Origin: a virus
IMG/VR virus record: IMGVR_UViG_3300030520_000119
Span: 1 to 21,353 of that record
Direction: 5' to 3' (one strand)
DNA: 21,353 nt
The notes beneath the pieces were generated by a model. That model was not told where the DNA came from. It saw only the letters and a list, made by a program, of their open reading frames with translations, and made no database searches. The position numbers and the translations under genes were made by a program. This document shows, piece after piece, positions 1 through 17,145 of this stretch. The first letter of the stretch is position 1. Every line of letters begins with the position of its first letter.

Positions 1-383
1 TACGCGCAGGCCGAGGTGCAGTTCATGATGACAAGCTTGCCGGAATCCGAACTGGAGGCCGTCGTGCTGGTGGTGTAGGTGACAGTGCCGCTTGCACCGC
101 CTCCGCTAACGCCAGCCACCGCCGCCAGCATGGCGGTATGCTCAGTCGATACGGCGGCGGTGGCGAACGTCTCTGCCGTAGTGATCGCCGCGGCGGCCGC
201 GTTGGCAGGGTCATAGGTGCCGCTGGGGATGTAGCAGGAGAAATTGCCGGAGCCATCGTGCTGGAACTGGCAGTTTTGGCCGCCGGAGGGCGCGGCGGGG
301 GTGGTGCTGGAAGCGTTGGGCGTCTGCGCTGCGGCCATTGCGGACCCGCACAGAATCAGGAGAAGTGCGCGAAGAGTTTTCAT
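1..383 (-). CDS. Secreted fibre-like protein (partial, runs off left edge)
   Basis: The frame opens with ATG at 381-383 and stays open to the window edge, about 127 codons; the C-terminus lies outside. Its ATG shares one base with the TAA stop of the upstream fibre gene (TAATG), so translation is probably coupled. The N-terminus reads MKTLRALLLILCGSAMAAAQ, a clear Sec signal peptide with likely cleavage after Ala17 or Ala19. The Cys in LILCG does not fit a lipobox. The rest is rich in Ala, Ser, Thr and Gly, with a small Cys-containing region (residues ~36-51) and a GGGASG linker at ~100. It then enters a segment around GKLVIMNCTSACA, which I associate with the start of beta-rich repeats in phage fibre or secreted proteins. 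The location at the end of the tail module suggests a distal fibre or adsorption accessory protein. No catalytic motif is visible. A host-surface or lysogenic-conversion role is the alternative. Confidence 0.72.
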   Translation of the reverse strand, partial: MKTLRALLLILCGSAMAAAQTPNASSTTPAAPSGGQNCQFQHDGSGNFSCYIPSGTYDPANAAAAAITTAETFATAAVSTEHTAMLAAVAGVSGGGASGTVTYTTSTTASSSDSGKLVIMNCTSACA

Positions 384-1546
384 TAGATTGTGGCTCCATT
401 CACTGTGAAGGTGGTTGCAGAAGTGGTAATGACCGTGCCGTTGACTGAGAAACTGAAGGTGCCGGATCCGCTGCTGGTGCCCGCCGGAATGCCGAAGTTC
501 AGCACCATATTGGAAGAGCTTCCACTGTTGGTCACCGTTGGAGTGGCACCCGACGCAAGCGCGGTAACCGTGCCGATTGCGATGGTTGCTGGCCCCGCAG
601 GCCCCGTTGCGCCGGTTGGTCCAGTGAGCCCCTGCACGGCCAGCTCCACCGAGGGATTCGAAGCGGACAGGCTGGTGAATGTCGCGCCGCGCGTAGTAAA
701 GAACAAGACGACAGGCAATAACGCGCCCGCGCTATATCCCGATGGCGAAAATGTGAACGTGGATATACCGGAAGACGCGACGCCCGGCGCAACATAAATC
801 GCCGCGTAGATGGTGGTGAGTCCCGGGTTGACGATTGCCCAGGACGGATCCGTACTTCCAGAGACGCCGGTTGCATTTATGTACCCGGATAGCACATAGG
901 TTTGTCCGACCGTCAGAAAGAATGTCGAGGATGTCGACCAGAACGAGGTTCCGGACGCGGAGACTGGAACTACAAGCGAGTTGAGCCCGGCGTAGGGAGA
1001 GCCATTAGCGATCGTCCAGCCACCCGGCTGCGACCAGTAGGTAAAGCCGCTCAGGAAGTTGGGATCCTGCACCAGGTTGGCGTTGATGCCGGGGATGCCG
1101 TACTGCTCCAGCACCAGGTTGCCGAGGTTGGGCGTATAGGTGTCGAAGTTCCATGAGCTGCCGCTGGGCTGGATGCAGCTATAACCGGGAAACGGAATCT
1201 GACGGCCGGTAAGGTTACTGATCAGCGTGACACTGTAGCAGACGTTCAGGGGTGATGTGAGCGAAGTATCCGCCAGCTGAATACTGAAGGCTCCGCTGGT
1301 GACGGTGGTGGAAACAGGATTCGCAATCGCCTGGCCGCCAGCGCCGCCCGCGCGAAAGCTGATAGGCACGCCTGCCGCATTCACAGGCTGGAACCGGATA
1401 GTGGCGCTGGTGACCACCGTGCCCGTAGCGTCAAGCAGGTGCGATCCGCTGACGATGGTATAGCCGGACGTTTGCGCGGACGCAGTGGCAGCGCCAAACG
1501 CGCACAGAAGGGCTAGAGCTGCAGAGCGCAGCACGTTGTGTTTCAT
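383..1546 (-). CDS. Collagen-like tail fibre protein with signal peptide
   Basis: 387 aa. The start is ATG at 1544-1546, with an AAAGGAG ribosome site 6 bases upstream. Residues 1-24 form a Sec signal peptide (n-region Lys, hydrophobic ALALLCAFGAA, ASA|QT cleavage), which is unusual for a virion protein. Residues ~28-145 are a beta-sandwich-like region. Residues ~158-303 begin with NLVQDPNFLSGFTYW and look like a CBM4/9-type jelly roll. Residues 306-320 contain five Gly-X-Y triplets (GLTGPTGATGPAGPA), a collagen-like trimerisation segment as found in many phage fibres. This is followed by a segment ending in LNFGIPAG, typical of phage collagen-associated domains, and a short C-terminal beta region. 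It lies after the tail tip genes and is coupled to the following secreted gene. Probable role: host-binding fibre or secreted adsorption accessory. Fibre architecture is visible; the receptor and the reason for export are unknown. Confidence 0.75.
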   Translation of the reverse strand: MKHNVLRSAALALLCAFGAATASAQTSGYTIVSGSHLLDATGTVVTSATIRFQPVNAAGVPISFRAGGAGGQAIANPVSTTVTSGAFSIQLADTSLTSPLNVCYSVTLISNLTGRQIPFPGYSCIQPSGSSWNFDTYTPNLGNLVLEQYGIPGINANLVQDPNFLSGFTYWSQPGGWTIANGSPYAGLNSLVVPVSASGTSFWSTSSTFFLTVGQTYVLSGYINATGVSGSTDPSWAIVNPGLTTIYAAIYVAPGVASSGISTFTFSPSGYSAGALLPVVLFFTTRGATFTSLSASNPSVELAVQGLTGPTGATGPAGPATIAIGTVTALASGATPTVTNSGSSSNMVLNFGIPAGTSSGSGTFSFSVNGTVITTSATTFTVNGATI

Positions 1547-1573: not shown

Positions 1574-1912
1574 TTAGGACTTGGGGTGCATAGCCGCCAT
1601 ACCGTGGGCAGCGTGGATTTTTTTGAGTGCGCTGAAGGTGCTATCCGAAGTGCTAAGCCCAACGCCGGCGGGAAACGCTTCGACCACTGCTTGCGAAAGA
1701 TGCTCGGAGGCATCGTGCAGCTCGGGAAAGGCCGCATACTTTGCTGCGAAGGCCATCTCCATCGCCAGGGTGGGCGCGATGACCACCACCAGCAAGCTGC
1801 CATGATCCGGAGGGATGCTGTGGAAGTGCCACTCGCGCTGCGCGCCCGCGCAGGTTCCGGCGATCGTCGCCTGCTCTGTGCGCGGCGCCACGAAGTAGAG
1901 TTTGTTGCGCAT
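1574..1912 (-). CDS. Small protein of unknown function after the tail tip gene
   Basis: 112 aa, starting at ATG 1910-1912 with a strong AGAGGAG ribosome site 5 bases upstream, 9 bases after the tail tip stop. I do not recognise the family. The middle (about residues 40-60) is hydrophobic but broken by Pro and Glu, so it is not a confident membrane segment. The first third contains HFHS, and His recurs near the C-terminus. There is no signal peptide, Cys pair or coiled coil. Between the J-like tip and the collagen-like fibre, phages often place fibre assembly chaperones or small tip proteins, but nothing in the sequence proves either. Good initiation signals and tight packing support a real gene. 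Confidence 0.75.
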   Translation of the reverse strand: MRNKLYFVAPRTEQATIAGTCAGAQREWHFHSIPPDHGSLLVVVIAPTLAMEMAFAAKYAAFPELHDASEHLSQAVVEAFPAGVGLSTSDSTFSALKKIHAAHGMAAMHPKS

Positions 1913-1921
1913 AATTCTCCT

Positions 1922-4900
1922 CTATGCTCCCGGCACAAGTTTTTGGTTGTGAGAATAGATGCGGGCGCTCGCCATTCTTCCGGCGGCGAAGATCCGATCC
2001 CCTGCATAGATCTGGTTCACCATCCGCGCCGGCACGCGCTCCGCATGGCACTCCATCCAAACCTTCTCTGTACCGCTCCCTGTGTCGGTCAAGACGAGCT
2101 GACCGTCCATCGCGTCGGCCGTCCGCATGAAGCCATCCGGCAAATGGAAGGGCGTGGAATCACTGGTGATCAACTCGTGGCCCATATCCGTCCACAGCCG
2201 AATGCAGGGCTGGGGGCTGAGCTGCATCGACTCCACGGCATGCCTGCCGTCTGTGCAGTCCAGCAGGTGGCCAGGACGGAGATGCGCAACCCGCAACCCT
2301 TCCGCAACGAACATCTCCACGGCTGGGCAGCCCCTGGGCGCGCCGCCGCCGCCGCCGGTTCCACCACCACCGCTTGCGGCCGTAGTGCCCTGCATGCCAG
2401 GACCGCCGACCAGCAGCGCTACATAGCCGTCAAGCCCTAGAACGGTAGTGAGCGTGAGAGCGCTGAACGTAGTGGCTGCACCCAGGGTATTGGCGGAGCT
2501 CATCCAGTTGCCGATGGCGAGGGTTGCCACATCCAGATTGCAGCCAATGTCGTATGTGGTGCTGGCCGTTAGTCCGGTGAACTCGAAGCTGCCCGCAGCA
2601 ACCACGGTGGTGGACCCGTCCGACCGGTAGAGATCGAACGCGGCCCAGGAGACGGTAATCGTGGAGGACGTGCCCGCATATGTAAATTGCAGGTTGCCGA
2701 AGCCGGTGATCCCCGCCTGCTTATTCAGCGCGGAGCTGAGCCCTGCCGTGAGCAGTGATCCCAACAGCGAGGAAACCAGGCTGGCGGTGATCGTCTCCCC
2801 AACCCATACGCTGGTCGAGCCGTTCGGCCGCACGGAACAGATCTGCACGTTGTAGGTGTCGCCCGCGACGATGGGGCCGATGAACGCGGAGTTGAGCTCG
2901 ACAGAAGTACTCCCAGCGTCAATCCATGCGGTAGCACCCGACAGCTGGTACTGAACCTTGATGGCCGTCGCGAAAGGATCCTGCGGCGTATCCCAGGTCA
3001 CTTCGATCTGCGCCGTCACAATGCCATCGGCAGAGACGGCAGCCGTCGACGGGCCGCTGAGCAGCGCCATCGCCGTGGGCGGCGCCACAATGCTGGACAT
3101 CCCCATGGTGGTGCTGGGAACGTCGTACGCGCTCATCTCTTCCGTGGCAGCCCAGGTGTAGATGCTGGGGTCAGTCTCGCCCACGTTGAAGCTGGCGCGG
3201 ATCTCTGCCGGCGAGCCAGGAGCGCCCGCGCTGCCTTCCTGCGACTTGACGGCCAGATTGCTACCCAGGATCTCCAGCGTCTTCCCTACCCAGCTATGCG
3301 GCGGGAAGGTGAACGTCATCACGTCATTCTCTTGCAGTGAATAGGCCGCAAGGCCCATCTCCAGTTTGCCGCGCCCCCAGAAGCGGCCGCGCATGAGGTC
3401 GATCTTTGCCAGCCGCTGGGCCTGCGCGCTGGACAACACCATGTCGTAGTTAGCGTTGCCGTTGAGATTGACGGGCGCGAGCTGCCACTGCGTGGAGGTG
3501 GGCGAAGGCGTATGGCCGATATTGCTGGCGATGAGCGATTTGTAGACCTGGGCGTAAGGGAAAGCCTCACTGTCGACATACACCGTGGTAACGTAGGCGA
3601 CAATCTGGCCAAGCGCGAAGGTGGTGCCCGAAGCCCACACAGCCGTGACGCCGGAATCTTGATTCAGCCACTGGTTGGCCGCGTAGCCGTGTAGTGGATC
3701 CTGCGCGTACGGCGGGAAGCTGGTGGGCGTGAAGCCAAACTGCCAGGTGTTGAGCAGTGTGCCGTCCGGAGCGAAACCGTTCTTATCGTAAAGATTGCCC
3801 GCGATGTTGTATGGATAGTTGGGCGCGGTATACGTTCCACGCACCTGGTTCACCGCCGATTTATACGCTGCGGTCGGATCCCAACTGACGGGCGCCGTCA
3901 GCATCGATTCATCAAACTCTGCCGAGGACCCGACCCACGCGGCCGGGAAGAGATAGATCTCTCCGCCGATGAGCGAGACGCGGCCGCCCATGCTTTTGAG
4001 CATGGTGGCGAGAGCGTCAGTGGGCGCCGTCGCGGTGTCGAAGTGATAGTGACACTGGTAGCGGGCTTCCGTAAGGCCACTGGTGATGCCTGTGGGCTGG
4101 TCGGGTTGGTTCGCCAGTGGCACCTGCTCATCGCAGATGTTGGCAGCCGCGATCAGCTGCGCCTGGTTCACCTGCATCCCCAGGCCGAACTCGGTGTCGG
4201 TGATCCAGTCCGCGCAGACCAGCGCAGAGTTTGCAGAGTAAACCGTCGTGCCTGTGCGGGGATCATAGACAGGCTTGCCCATCACCGTGATGCGGATCTC
4301 CGGGCGCTGCGGAAAGGTGCCGGAGTTGTACTCCGCCTTGAAATAGAACCAGCTGCAGCCGCCGATGTAGGGCGTGCCGGCCGCCGTGGTAGCCCATGCG
4401 GGATCGTTCGCCTCGAGACCTCCATCTAGATCCGCCGCCGTTTGCGTGCCGTAATACGCGTCCGCGTAGATGCCGCTGTGGCCGGTGCCCCCGAAGTTGT
4501 ATTGCTGGCCGTCCGGGCCTTCGTGATTATTGCCGTCCGCGATGCCGCCGAAGTAGATGCCACCAGGTGAAGGCAAATACCCATCACCGCTGCCCTGCCA
4601 CCAGACTTTGCGGCCGTCGAGGTAAAGCTCGCTGAACCCCCAGACCGGGTGACCAGCAACCACGATTACCATGTTGTACTGATCGAGGCTGCTGCCGGTG
4701 GTGGACTGGTAGACCATCACGCCACCCACGCGCTGCATGCCGTAGATGATCTGCCGCGGCGTTGCTGCCTGCCGGGTGGTGATGTCCATGCCCCGGTTGC
4801 TAGTGAGGGCGCTGGCGATGGCGCCGGCCTCCATGGCGACACCCGCCGCGCCGATCGCGGCGATGCCCATGCCGAGGGCCGAGCCAGCATAGAAGGCTTC

Positions 4901-4996
4901 CACGCCCACTAAGCTGAGCGACGCACCACCGGCGGTGATAATCGTCGCAGCAATAGCCACGCCGAGTAACGCTGCGCCTTCAATCGCCTTACTCAT
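1922..4996 (-). CDS. J-like tail tip / host specificity protein with C-terminal Hint-like domain
   Basis: 1024 aa from ATG 4994-4996, which overlaps the upstream stop as ATGA; an upstream in-frame GTG at 5005 is less likely. Domains: Ala/Gly-rich hydrophobic N-terminus (residues ~5-65); J-like core (~70-640) with motifs such as PRQIIYG, GHPVWGFSELYLDG, RPEIRITVMGKPVYDPR and CADWITDTEFGLG, typical of lambda J-type central tail proteins; inside it a CBM5/12-like insert (~450-507, W..GTTFALGQIVAY..TVY); a fibronectin-III-like domain (~637-740); a second beta domain (~765-850); a GGGGTGGGGG linker (~876-886); and a Hint-like C-terminus from Cys890 to His1016-Asn1017, followed by seven residues. 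The protein should close the tail tip and contact the receptor. The Hint block-B TxxH histidine is not evident, so activity is uncertain. Placement after the NlpC/P60-like gene is the classic tip-complex order. Confidence 0.9.
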   Translation of the reverse strand: MSKAIEGAALLGVAIAATIITAGGASLSLVGVEAFYAGSALGMGIAAIGAAGVAMEAGAIASALTSNRGMDITTRQAATPRQIIYGMQRVGGVMVYQSTTGSSLDQYNMVIVVAGHPVWGFSELYLDGRKVWWQGSGDGYLPSPGGIYFGGIADGNNHEGPDGQQYNFGGTGHSGIYADAYYGTQTAADLDGGLEANDPAWATTAAGTPYIGGCSWFYFKAEYNSGTFPQRPEIRITVMGKPVYDPRTGTTVYSANSALVCADWITDTEFGLGMQVNQAQLIAAANICDEQVPLANQPDQPTGITSGLTEARYQCHYHFDTATAPTDALATMLKSMGGRVSLIGGEIYLFPAAWVGSSAEFDESMLTAPVSWDPTAAYKSAVNQVRGTYTAPNYPYNIAGNLYDKNGFAPDGTLLNTWQFGFTPTSFPPYAQDPLHGYAANQWLNQDSGVTAVWASGTTFALGQIVAYVTTVYVDSEAFPYAQVYKSLIASNIGHTPSPTSTQWQLAPVNLNGNANYDMVLSSAQAQRLAKIDLMRGRFWGRGKLEMGLAAYSLQENDVMTFTFPPHSWVGKTLEILGSNLAVKSQEGSAGAPGSPAEIRASFNVGETDPSIYTWAATEEMSAYDVPSTTMGMSSIVAPPTAMALLSGPSTAAVSADGIVTAQIEVTWDTPQDPFATAIKVQYQLSGATAWIDAGSTSVELNSAFIGPIVAGDTYNVQICSVRPNGSTSVWVGETITASLVSSLLGSLLTAGLSSALNKQAGITGFGNLQFTYAGTSSTITVSWAAFDLYRSDGSTTVVAAGSFEFTGLTASTTYDIGCNLDVATLAIGNWMSSANTLGAATTFSALTLTTVLGLDGYVALLVGGPGMQGTTAASGGGGTGGGGGAPRGCPAVEMFVAEGLRVAHLRPGHLLDCTDGRHAVESMQLSPQPCIRLWTDMGHELITSDSTPFHLPDGFMRTADAMDGQLVLTDTGSGTEKVWMECHAERVPARMVNQIYAGDRIFAAGRMASARIYSHNQKLVPGA

Positions 4997-5583
4997 ACGC
5001 GCCACGCCCTTACAATGCTGGTGATCGGCAGCCGCACCGCACCGGATTCAGCGACGGAGACGACATGCGCTCCCGTTAGGTGCACAATCCCTGCAATCAA
5101 TTGATCCGGCGCCGCCCCTGCCTGCCGTATTACCACTAGATCTCCGCGCTGGGCGCAGAGTGGATGCTCCAGCTCGTCGAGGCCGTACTTGGCCGCGCAC
5201 CATGCGGCCGCATCCGCTACCGTGGTGCCGCCGGTGATCTTGCGGATCGCCTGAAACGCGGAAACCCTGTCCGTATACAGGCCGCGAAAGTCTGCGGCGA
5301 TGTCGACACCCGTGAAGCCCTGCGCGACCTTGGCGTGGGCCGCCGCGCGATCGGCAGCGTGGGTGTGATGGCTGATGCTGTCTGCGGCCATGTGCGCGGC
5401 TGTGTTGGTAGCGCAGGCGGCAGCGGCCTCCGGCGTATTGAGCGCGGCGAAGCTGCGGATGGCATTGGCGGCGAAGAGGCAGCAATCATGCTCACCCCAC
5501 GCGAACGGCTTGCGCGCGATCGCGGTGAGATGCGCGTGAAACTCGTACTCGCGCCAATGCTCGGAAGAACGTTGCAGTGCCAT
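4993..5583 (-). CDS. NlpC/P60-like tail tip peptidase
   Basis: 196 aa, ATG 5581-5583 with GAGG five bases upstream. The start of the fold shows FAWGEHDCCLF (residues 27-37), the catalytic-Cys motif of NlpC/P60-like phage tail proteins (the WGxHDC family, later named DUF6950-type). The nucleophile would be Cys34. Downstream are TGVDIAADFRGLY (91-103), CAQRGDLVV (143-151) and a closing RAWRV, all typical of this family. The catalytic His is probably His168 or His173. Such proteins sit in the tail tip and are thought to cut peptidoglycan or process tip proteins during entry. Residues ~46-90 are an Ala/His-rich insert not usual for the family. The stop overlaps the start of the tip protein (ATGA), and a terminator-like hairpin lies just upstream. 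Confidence 0.8.
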   Translation of the reverse strand: MALQRSSEHWREYEFHAHLTAIARKPFAWGEHDCCLFAANAIRSFAALNTPEAAAACATNTAAHMAADSISHHTHAADRAAAHAKVAQGFTGVDIAADFRGLYTDRVSAFQAIRKITGGTTVADAAAWCAAKYGLDELEHPLCAQRGDLVVIRQAGAAPDQLIAGIVHLTGAHVVSVAESGAVRLPITSIVRAWRV

Positions 5584-15993: not shown

Positions 15994-17145
15994 CTACCGG
16001 GCAGCTGCGAGTTGCAGGCGCAACCGAGTGGTGGCCGTATCGGCTTTTGCCTTTGCCGCCGACTTCGCCGCTTCACAGTCGCAACCGGCACAATCACAGC
16101 CGTCATGCGAGCAACCGTCACAATCGCCGCCCTTGCATGAATCGCACGTGCAGGTGCAGTCGACATCACCAGACATGTCGATACCGTCACCGGCTTTCAC
16201 CGCGCCGAGCGTCGGCATGATCGTATGCGCGTGGGCATGTTTGCCATCGTCGACCAGCATCGACATGCTTCCTGAACTCATGCTGACGCCGAACCTGGCC
16301 AGCACATCATCCAGCGTGCCGATCTTATCCGCCATGCCGATCTTCACTGCATCCTTCGCGTTGAAAACCTTGCCTTGGCCGAACGCCTGGTGCACCTTCG
16401 CCTGGCTGATCTTACGGCCAGCGGCGACAGCCTTCTCAAACATATCGCCGAAACTATCGACCATGCTTTGCATGTCCGCGCGGGCGGAATCAGAAAGGGG
16501 CTCATAATTGTTGCCGGCCGTCTTGTTCTCTCCGAAGCTGATCAGCGTTACCTTCACGCCGATGTCTTCCAGCATCTTCGAATCGTCCTCATGAGCGCAG
16601 TACACGCCCACCGAACCCGTCAGCGAGCTGGGGCTTACCACCACTTCCGAGCAGCTGGCTGCGACGTAGTACGCGGCCGAGGCGCAGAGGCAGTTTGAAA
16701 CCGCAATCACTTGCTTCTTCGAACGCGCTGCGCGGATCTCGCTGGCGAGCTCGTCAACACCCTCGACGGTTCCACCAGGGGAATCGACGTCCACCACGAT
16801 GGCCTGCACGTTGGGATCGTTCACCGCCTGGCGAAACTGCTGCAGGAACTTTGCTGTGGAGGTCGCTGTGGGGCCACTGATGTCGCCCATGGCGCTGCCG
16901 CGATGCAGGATCAGACCGTAGAGCGGCAGGACAGCCACCGCGCCCTTGCTGGACGCAGAGACCTTCTGCGCGCGGGCAGCCGTGACAGCGCTCTGCCCTT
17001 GGATCCCGGCCAGCGTCTCGGCCTCGACGGCTTTCCCCTCAGCCTTGAGCTGCAGGAAGGCCATGACGGCTTCGAGCTTTTCCGGCTGGATGGCCCAAAG
17101 TTGGGACCGCATCGCGTGACGAATTGCGCTGTATGCCTTGCTCAT
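15994..17145 (-). CDS. S49-family capsid maturation protease with Cys-rich tail
   Basis: 383 aa, ATG 17143-17145 overlapping the portal stop (ATGA). The S49/SppA-like core has AVLPLYGLILHRG (71-83), VDVDSPGGTVEGVDELA (118-134, oxyanion region), NCLCASAAYYVAAS with the predicted nucleophile Ser156, LTGSVGVY (175-182) and GENKTAGN with the predicted general base Lys208. The Ser-Lys gap of 52 equals that of Bacillus SppA (Ser147/Lys199). The protease processes the HK97-fold capsid shell. After residue ~288 comes an unusual tail: a His-rich KHAHAHT, then ten Cys between 330 and 357 as CxC and CxxC units, then an Ala/Lys/Arg-rich end. No separate scaffold gene exists, so this tail or the capsid N-domain may serve that role. 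Confidence 0.92.
   Translation of the reverse strand: MSKAYSAIRHAMRSQLWAIQPEKLEAVMAFLQLKAEGKAVEAETLAGIQGQSAVTAARAQKVSASSKGAVAVLPLYGLILHRGSAMGDISGPTATSTAKFLQQFRQAVNDPNVQAIVVDVDSPGGTVEGVDELASEIRAARSKKQVIAVSNCLCASAAYYVAASCSEVVVSPSSLTGSVGVYCAHEDDSKMLEDIGVKVTLISFGENKTAGNNYEPLSDSARADMQSMVDSFGDMFEKAVAAGRKISQAKVHQAFGQGKVFNAKDAVKIGMADKIGTLDDVLARFGVSMSSGSMSMLVDDGKHAHAHTIMPTLGAVKAGDGIDMSGDVDCTCTCDSCKGGDCDGCSHDGCDCAGCDCEAAKSAAKAKADTATTRLRLQLAAAR

Follow-up and report, generated by a model that had tools for sequence, protein, structure and literature searches.

The tail tip protein encoded in the window, by which we mean the whole 21,353-base stretch of the virus record analysed here, is predicted to end in a Hint-fold domain that is followed by only seven residues before the stop codon. 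About 70 relatives of this domain were assembled, which lie at the very C-terminal end of phage virion proteins, tail and fibre proteins among them, and a lysine is present in every post-domain tail that could be read. We lean towards interpreting this C-terminus as an autoprocessing domain in which a Cys1 thioester is resolved, or its resolution assisted, by the tail lysine; processing has been shown for no member, and the activity of the domain, its products, timing and biological role are all inferred.

On its minus strand the window carries a structural module of siphophage type, in which terminase, portal, S49 protease and capsid genes are followed by tail genes. The tip protein is J-like according to its matches to PHROG 5616 (tail fiber, E=1.7e-55) and PHROG 31 ('central tail fiber J', E=7e-24), both of which span its N-terminal part. 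An alternative start, an in-frame ATG at 4996, lies three codons downstream of the GTG and would give a protein of 1024 aa; Cys1 of the domain is residue 893 when counted from the GTG and residue 890 when counted from the ATG. The features of the gene are as follows:

1922 to 5005, minus strand: J-like tail tip protein with PHROG matches, carrier of the Hint domain, 1027 aa from GTG
2330 to 2374, minus strand: Gly-rich linker SGGGGTGGGGGAPRG, read from the sequence, directly preceding Cys1
1946 to 2329, minus strand: predicted Hint-fold domain, Cys1 to Asn128 (AlphaFold and Foldseek)
2327 to 2329, minus strand: Cys1, the N-terminal nucleophile position (block A), kept in 63 of 63 full-length members bearing the His-Asn (HN) end
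2204 to 2206, minus strand: second conserved Cys (QPC-[VI]-R), present in 84% of the family
2153 to 2164, minus strand: block B, S-D-S-T, with Ser for Thr(B:7) and Thr for His(B:10), aligned to the intein TxxH
1946 to 1951, minus strand: penultimate His and terminal Asn (block G), found in all 65 members with a resolvable tail
1925 to 1945, minus strand: post-Asn tail QKLVPGA, seven residues and then the stop; tails of 3-11 residues in all members
1940 to 1942, minus strand: tail lysine (+2), universal in the family (65 of 65 tails)

The domain comprises 128 residues and ends YSHN, with Ser-His-Asn at its very end and the Asn at 1946-1948; the first residue after it (+1) is Gln. A sequence-only reading made earlier on this DNA had already placed the linker, Cys890 (ATG count), Ser-His-Asn, the following Gln and the seven-residue tail, and its coordinates and residues were exact. 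Conceivably, the second conserved Cys could form a redox-sensitive disulfide with Cys1.

Modelling on the family alignment with AlphaFold2 (pLDDT 92, pTM 0.88) gave a structure whose best 50 PDB fold matches listed by Foldseek were all inteins, bacterial intein-like (BIL) domains or Hedgehog domains, including the gp41-1 intein (PDB 6qaz/6riz; E=3.6e-6, TM 0.71/0.78), NpuDnaB (TM 0.74), the BIL 2lwy (E=9.6e-4, TM 0.68) and Hedgehog 1at0 (E=1.1e-3, TM 0.58). In a viral structure library, large phage proteins matched best, followed by phage proteins named 'Hint'. Furthermore, a family profile of 31 sequences searched against all PDB chains returned inteins as its top four matches (E=2.2e-4 to 0.025), among them gp41-1 (E=2.2e-4) and the CDC21 intein (E=9.8e-4), and aligned the S-x-x-T-P motif of the family over the block B T-x-x-H. 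Inteins were reached by the family profile only: phmmer with the single window domain against the PDB gave chance-level matches, no model in Pfam, NCBIfam or PHROGs matched the window domain or its relatives when these were scanned sequence by sequence, and the Pfam scan of the window domain returned nothing up to E=10, S74-type peptidase included. Structure prediction and profile comparison agree that the C-terminal domain of the tip protein has the Hint fold. The earlier proposal of a Hint/intein-like domain, for which comparison of a predicted structure with Hint folds had been suggested as a check, is supported by the model, by the profile match to PDB inteins and by a Vint domain at the same place on a related tip.

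A tblastn search against isolated phages detected relatives (E=6e-6), which came from Xanthomonas phages LucasX, XacN1 and PhiXhv-12/15/16, Erwinia phage Ep032 and Stenotrophomonas phage DLP_6, the latter with two copies, and the domain was the last element of the protein in each phage examined. Automatically chosen search patterns found no relatives of the domain, and hand-made C-terminal patterns did. A DNA pattern for [FY]AAGx6[IV]Y[ST]HN, which covers the C-terminal motif only, matched 35 viral contigs, all 35 of which carried true members at an ORF C-terminus; Cys1 and the block-B Thr, both outside the pattern, were invariant in the 35. The domain recurs far more than chance would allow. 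The same pattern identified four members in bacterial and archaeal genomes (Dyella, a Granulicella bin and two other bins), and a second pattern combined with an HMM scan of all loci brought the number of unique members whose tail could be read to 65. Whole-genome HMM searches were positive in about 1% of genomes or fewer, a plasmid search found no relative of the domain, and the divergent L058 domain used as a query recovered no further relatives in phages or in 399 genomes. Two genome pattern matches (L046 and L050) were rejected as chance. Separately, one Pseudomonadota genome (G869, L130-L135) holds six copies of the domain, four of them intact; of the remaining two, one is without the Cys1 end and the other is a short decayed fragment ending ITHKGVHKS.

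Carriers are diverse and include J-like/GTA-like tip proteins (Phage-tail_3, Rcc01698_C), fibres and uncharacterised proteins; the sequence-only reading was right that other J-like proteins have similar C-termini. The linker ahead of the domain is usually Gly/Pro-rich, with at least six Gly within the 30 residues before Cys1 in 49 of 61 members, and most members are 22-38% identical to the window domain. The family is apparently uncatalogued, being without a model in Pfam, NCBIfam or PHROGs and distinct from the catalogued Hint families. In addition, it was not described in the open-access literature on Hint domains with phage tails, fibres or tips, or with isopeptide or lysine (subscription papers were not covered), where the phage papers found concern inteins in terminases and replication genes.

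Because His-Asn formed part of the search patterns, members found without those patterns were counted separately, and Cys1, His-Asn and the tail lysine were kept in 15 of 15 intact members obtained by BLAST, genome HMM or a secondary match. Block B is different. The stretch assigned to it in the earlier reading (GHELITSDSTPF in the window domain) does align with intein block B, but that reading missed that the His there is Thr family-wide: Ser is found in 60 of 63 members and Thr in 62 of 63, with Ala in L058 as the sole exception, so the TxxH characteristic of the Hint superfamily is absent and SxxT stands in nearly all members. The block-B His is the most conserved intein residue (PMC4031507), and its loss is a real objection to an active domain. 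It is not absolute for Hint domains, since several natural inteins have been reported that lack it and are compensated (PMC7664689), and compensation for the missing His is documented in an engineered intein with bulky -1 residues (PMC6333167). In the new family the -1 residue is Gly in 28 of 63 members and Tyr, Trp, Phe or Leu in 20 of 63. No tested precedent that could be cited was found for a natural His to Thr replacement in block B, and the family showed no conserved equivalent of the two assisting block F residues of inteins, Asp and His.

The tail lysine was overlooked by the earlier reading. Post-Asn tails of 3-11 residues contain exactly one Lys in 64 members and two in the remaining one, at positions from +1 to +10 and mostly +3 to +5, and no tail (0 of 65) has Arg without Lys. 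Lys occurred in only 21% of the matched tails of 659 control ORFs from the same loci, which were picked by a mechanical rule and are not all genes; the composition of the carriers is 2.1% Lys and 4.1% Arg. After clustering at 50% identity, a tail Lys was present in 24 of 24 clusters, which compared with the control appears far from chance. We give no exact probability for this excess because the control includes non-genes and the members are related. The block-B Thr replacement and the universal tail lysine are both newly noticed features of the family. Given its variable position, the lysine could instead be a docking feature.

A stand-alone ORF of 140 aa in the PhiXhv phages, which overlaps the end of the carrier gene (L005 after 4360, PhiXhv-15 XYR93252.1; also in L009), matches the family at E=8e-8 and has lost Cys1, His-Asn and the lysine together. 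It is the only intact-length copy without Cys1, and the joint loss fits all three elements sharing one active site. This degenerate copy is perhaps a partner or decoy subunit.

In inteins, Cys1 forms a thioester with the preceding residue, and a +1 Cys, Ser or Thr and Asn cyclisation complete the reaction, whereas type A BILs, which have no nucleophile at +1, cleave for the most part and show some free-amine ligation (PMC4031507, PMC7664689). The +1 residue of the new family is Ser or Thr in 8 of 65 members and Cys in none, and the earlier judgement that splicing is unlikely holds for lack of this nucleophile. In the mechanism we propose, Cys1 would attack the preceding peptide bond of the linker, giving a thioester where the linker meets Cys1. 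The acyl group may then pass to the tail lysine amine, so that an isopeptide joins the linker end to the tail, either within one protomer or in a neighbouring one; alternatively, this amine may assist cleavage. Asn cyclisation, which would be optional, could free the Hint domain. Such processing would leave the Gly-rich end of the tip trimmed, capped or cross-linked once assembly has taken place. The amine would be placed to accept the acyl group because there is no +1 Cys, Ser or Thr, the lysine is only a few residues away from the C-terminal junction, and splice junctions adjoin in the Hint fold. Only as a tentative suggestion, and one we think unlikely in its full form, do we propose that the lysine replaces the +1 residue as acyl acceptor, with the isopeptide tying the Gly-rich end to the tail within or between the protomers of the trimer and closing or cross-linking the distal end of the virion. 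If this were true, phage tail maturation would employ a new branch of protein-splicing chemistry, and an intein-fold ligase without either +1 Cys, Ser or Thr or block-B His would be useful for protein ligation. Host contact occurs via tail-tip C-termini, whose maturation is poorly known; a large Hint family at these C-termini suggests that tails mature by way of a reaction of the protein-splicing type, and the invariant lysine offers a directly testable chemical hypothesis.

Plain self-cleavage, in which the domain is a removable maturation module that hydrolysis or thiols release at Cys1 and that the mature virion no longer contains, with the lysine aiding only catalysis or folding, is a serious contender that we nevertheless consider improbable. 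The domain is always C-terminal, usually behind a flexible linker, and few members have a splicing nucleophile at +1, as such a module would predict, but the retention of lysine, and never of arginine alone, in every tail is left unexplained. Type A BILs (Clostridium thermocellum BIL, PDB 2lwy) share with the new family the Hint fold, Cys1, the His-Asn end and the absence of a +1 Cys, Ser or Thr; the family differs from them by its block-B Thr, where known BILs keep the His, by its C-terminal location in phage virion proteins and by its lysine-bearing tail of 3-11 residues. Known phage fibres also shed C-terminal chaperones by autoproteolysis, and the fibre and tailspike chaperones of K1F and T5 are likewise C-terminal, self-removed maturation modules (PMC10579305). 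They differ from the new family in fold and chemistry (Ser-based, helical trimer), and neither an S74-type nor any other Pfam match was obtained with the window domain.

The nearest carriers, L032 and L048, share 68% and 59% identity with the window in the domain and 27% in the main N-terminal tip region, and by these sequence comparisons the Hint domain moves as a module. The better conservation of the domain speaks against a catalytically dead Hint that serves as a structural or receptor-binding tip, as does the invariance of Cys1, His-Asn and Lys at 22-38% identity, the opposite of what would be expected of a dead fold or a fast-evolving adhesin. This reading, which we hold to be doubtful, draws on the family-wide loss of the block-B His, on the degenerate PhiXhv copy beside an intact one, by which the fold can serve without catalysis, and on the poly-Gly regions that occur in known fibre adhesins.

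Additionally, the tip protein of L010, 38% identical to the window tip, bears a different C-terminal Hint domain after a Gly-rich linker (CFSPNTL...STPNHQMW...EHSYTLANGQVVHN, ending VHN plus the six residues LFTNPE). It matches Pfam Vint at E=1e-5, slightly under the curated cut-off. The Vint/Hint_2 type (PF14623, PF13403) seen here thus occupies the same place on a J-like tip, but keeps the block-B His (TPNH), has no tail lysine and shows no sequence-level alignment with the new family. The single L010 Hint could not be aligned with the family when the two were compared as profiles, and its AlphaFold model, made without relatives, reached a pLDDT of only 44, so its assignment rests on Pfam Vint and the motifs. 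Since L010 carries a Vint-type domain at this position, selection seems to be for a Hint of any type at the tip end.

The Hedgehog Hog domain (PDB 1at0), which lacks a His-Asn end, has in common with the new family a C-terminal Hint fold, the N-S acyl shift proposed here and the absence of splicing, and differs in having His in block B where the family has Thr. Hog transfers to cholesterol (PMC7664689). A corresponding attack on the thioester by a host-surface nucleophile, fixing the tip covalently to the cell, would suit a C-terminal Hint on a surface-contacting protein with a 1at0 fold match; we find it very hard to credit, as no sterol-recognition-like extension lies past the Hint, only 3-11 residues following it, no host target is known, and His-Asn and the tail lysine are left unexplained. 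That the domain is a true intein, a mobile splicing element inserted near the gene end, has the intein-like sequence and fold in its favour and can practically be dismissed, given that +1 Cys, Ser or Thr is missing in the window domain and in 57 of 65 members and that the 'C-extein' has only 3-11 residues, the domain in every case ending a virion protein, with carriers unrelated to one another. Class 1 inteins, by comparison, sit inside a host protein and are followed by a functional C-extein, while class 3 inteins have no Cys1 and use a WCT motif with a block F Cys, unlike the new family with its invariant Cys1. The gp41-1 cyanophage-type intein, the best sequence-profile and fold match of the family, splices with a +1 Ser, has the block-B His, as seen in the profile alignment, and is not C-terminal.

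Regarding the neighbourhood, a universal downstream partner gene was sought and none was found, the neighbours varying with phage type. In the window, a gene at 1574-1912 (minus) encodes a 112-aa protein (MRNKLYFVAP...) without a Pfam match, which begins 9-14 bases past the carrier gene in the window and in two relatives (L020, and L048 at +14). An unusual stretch rich in Cys, CTCTCDSCKGGDCDGCSHDGCDCAGCDC, lies close to the C-terminus of the S49-type phage protease at 15994-17145 (minus). The tip protein of L032 (797-7405, minus) contains an ILEI domain (PF15711, E=1.3e-8), a family known from animal proteins. Lastly, two genes past the tip gene of the window, at 383-1546 (minus; MKHNVLRSAALALLCAFGAATASAQT, with short collagen-like Gly-X-Y runs) and 3-383 (minus; MKTLRALLLILCGSAMAAAQT), both encode signal-peptide-like N-termini, which are unusual in phage structural proteins.
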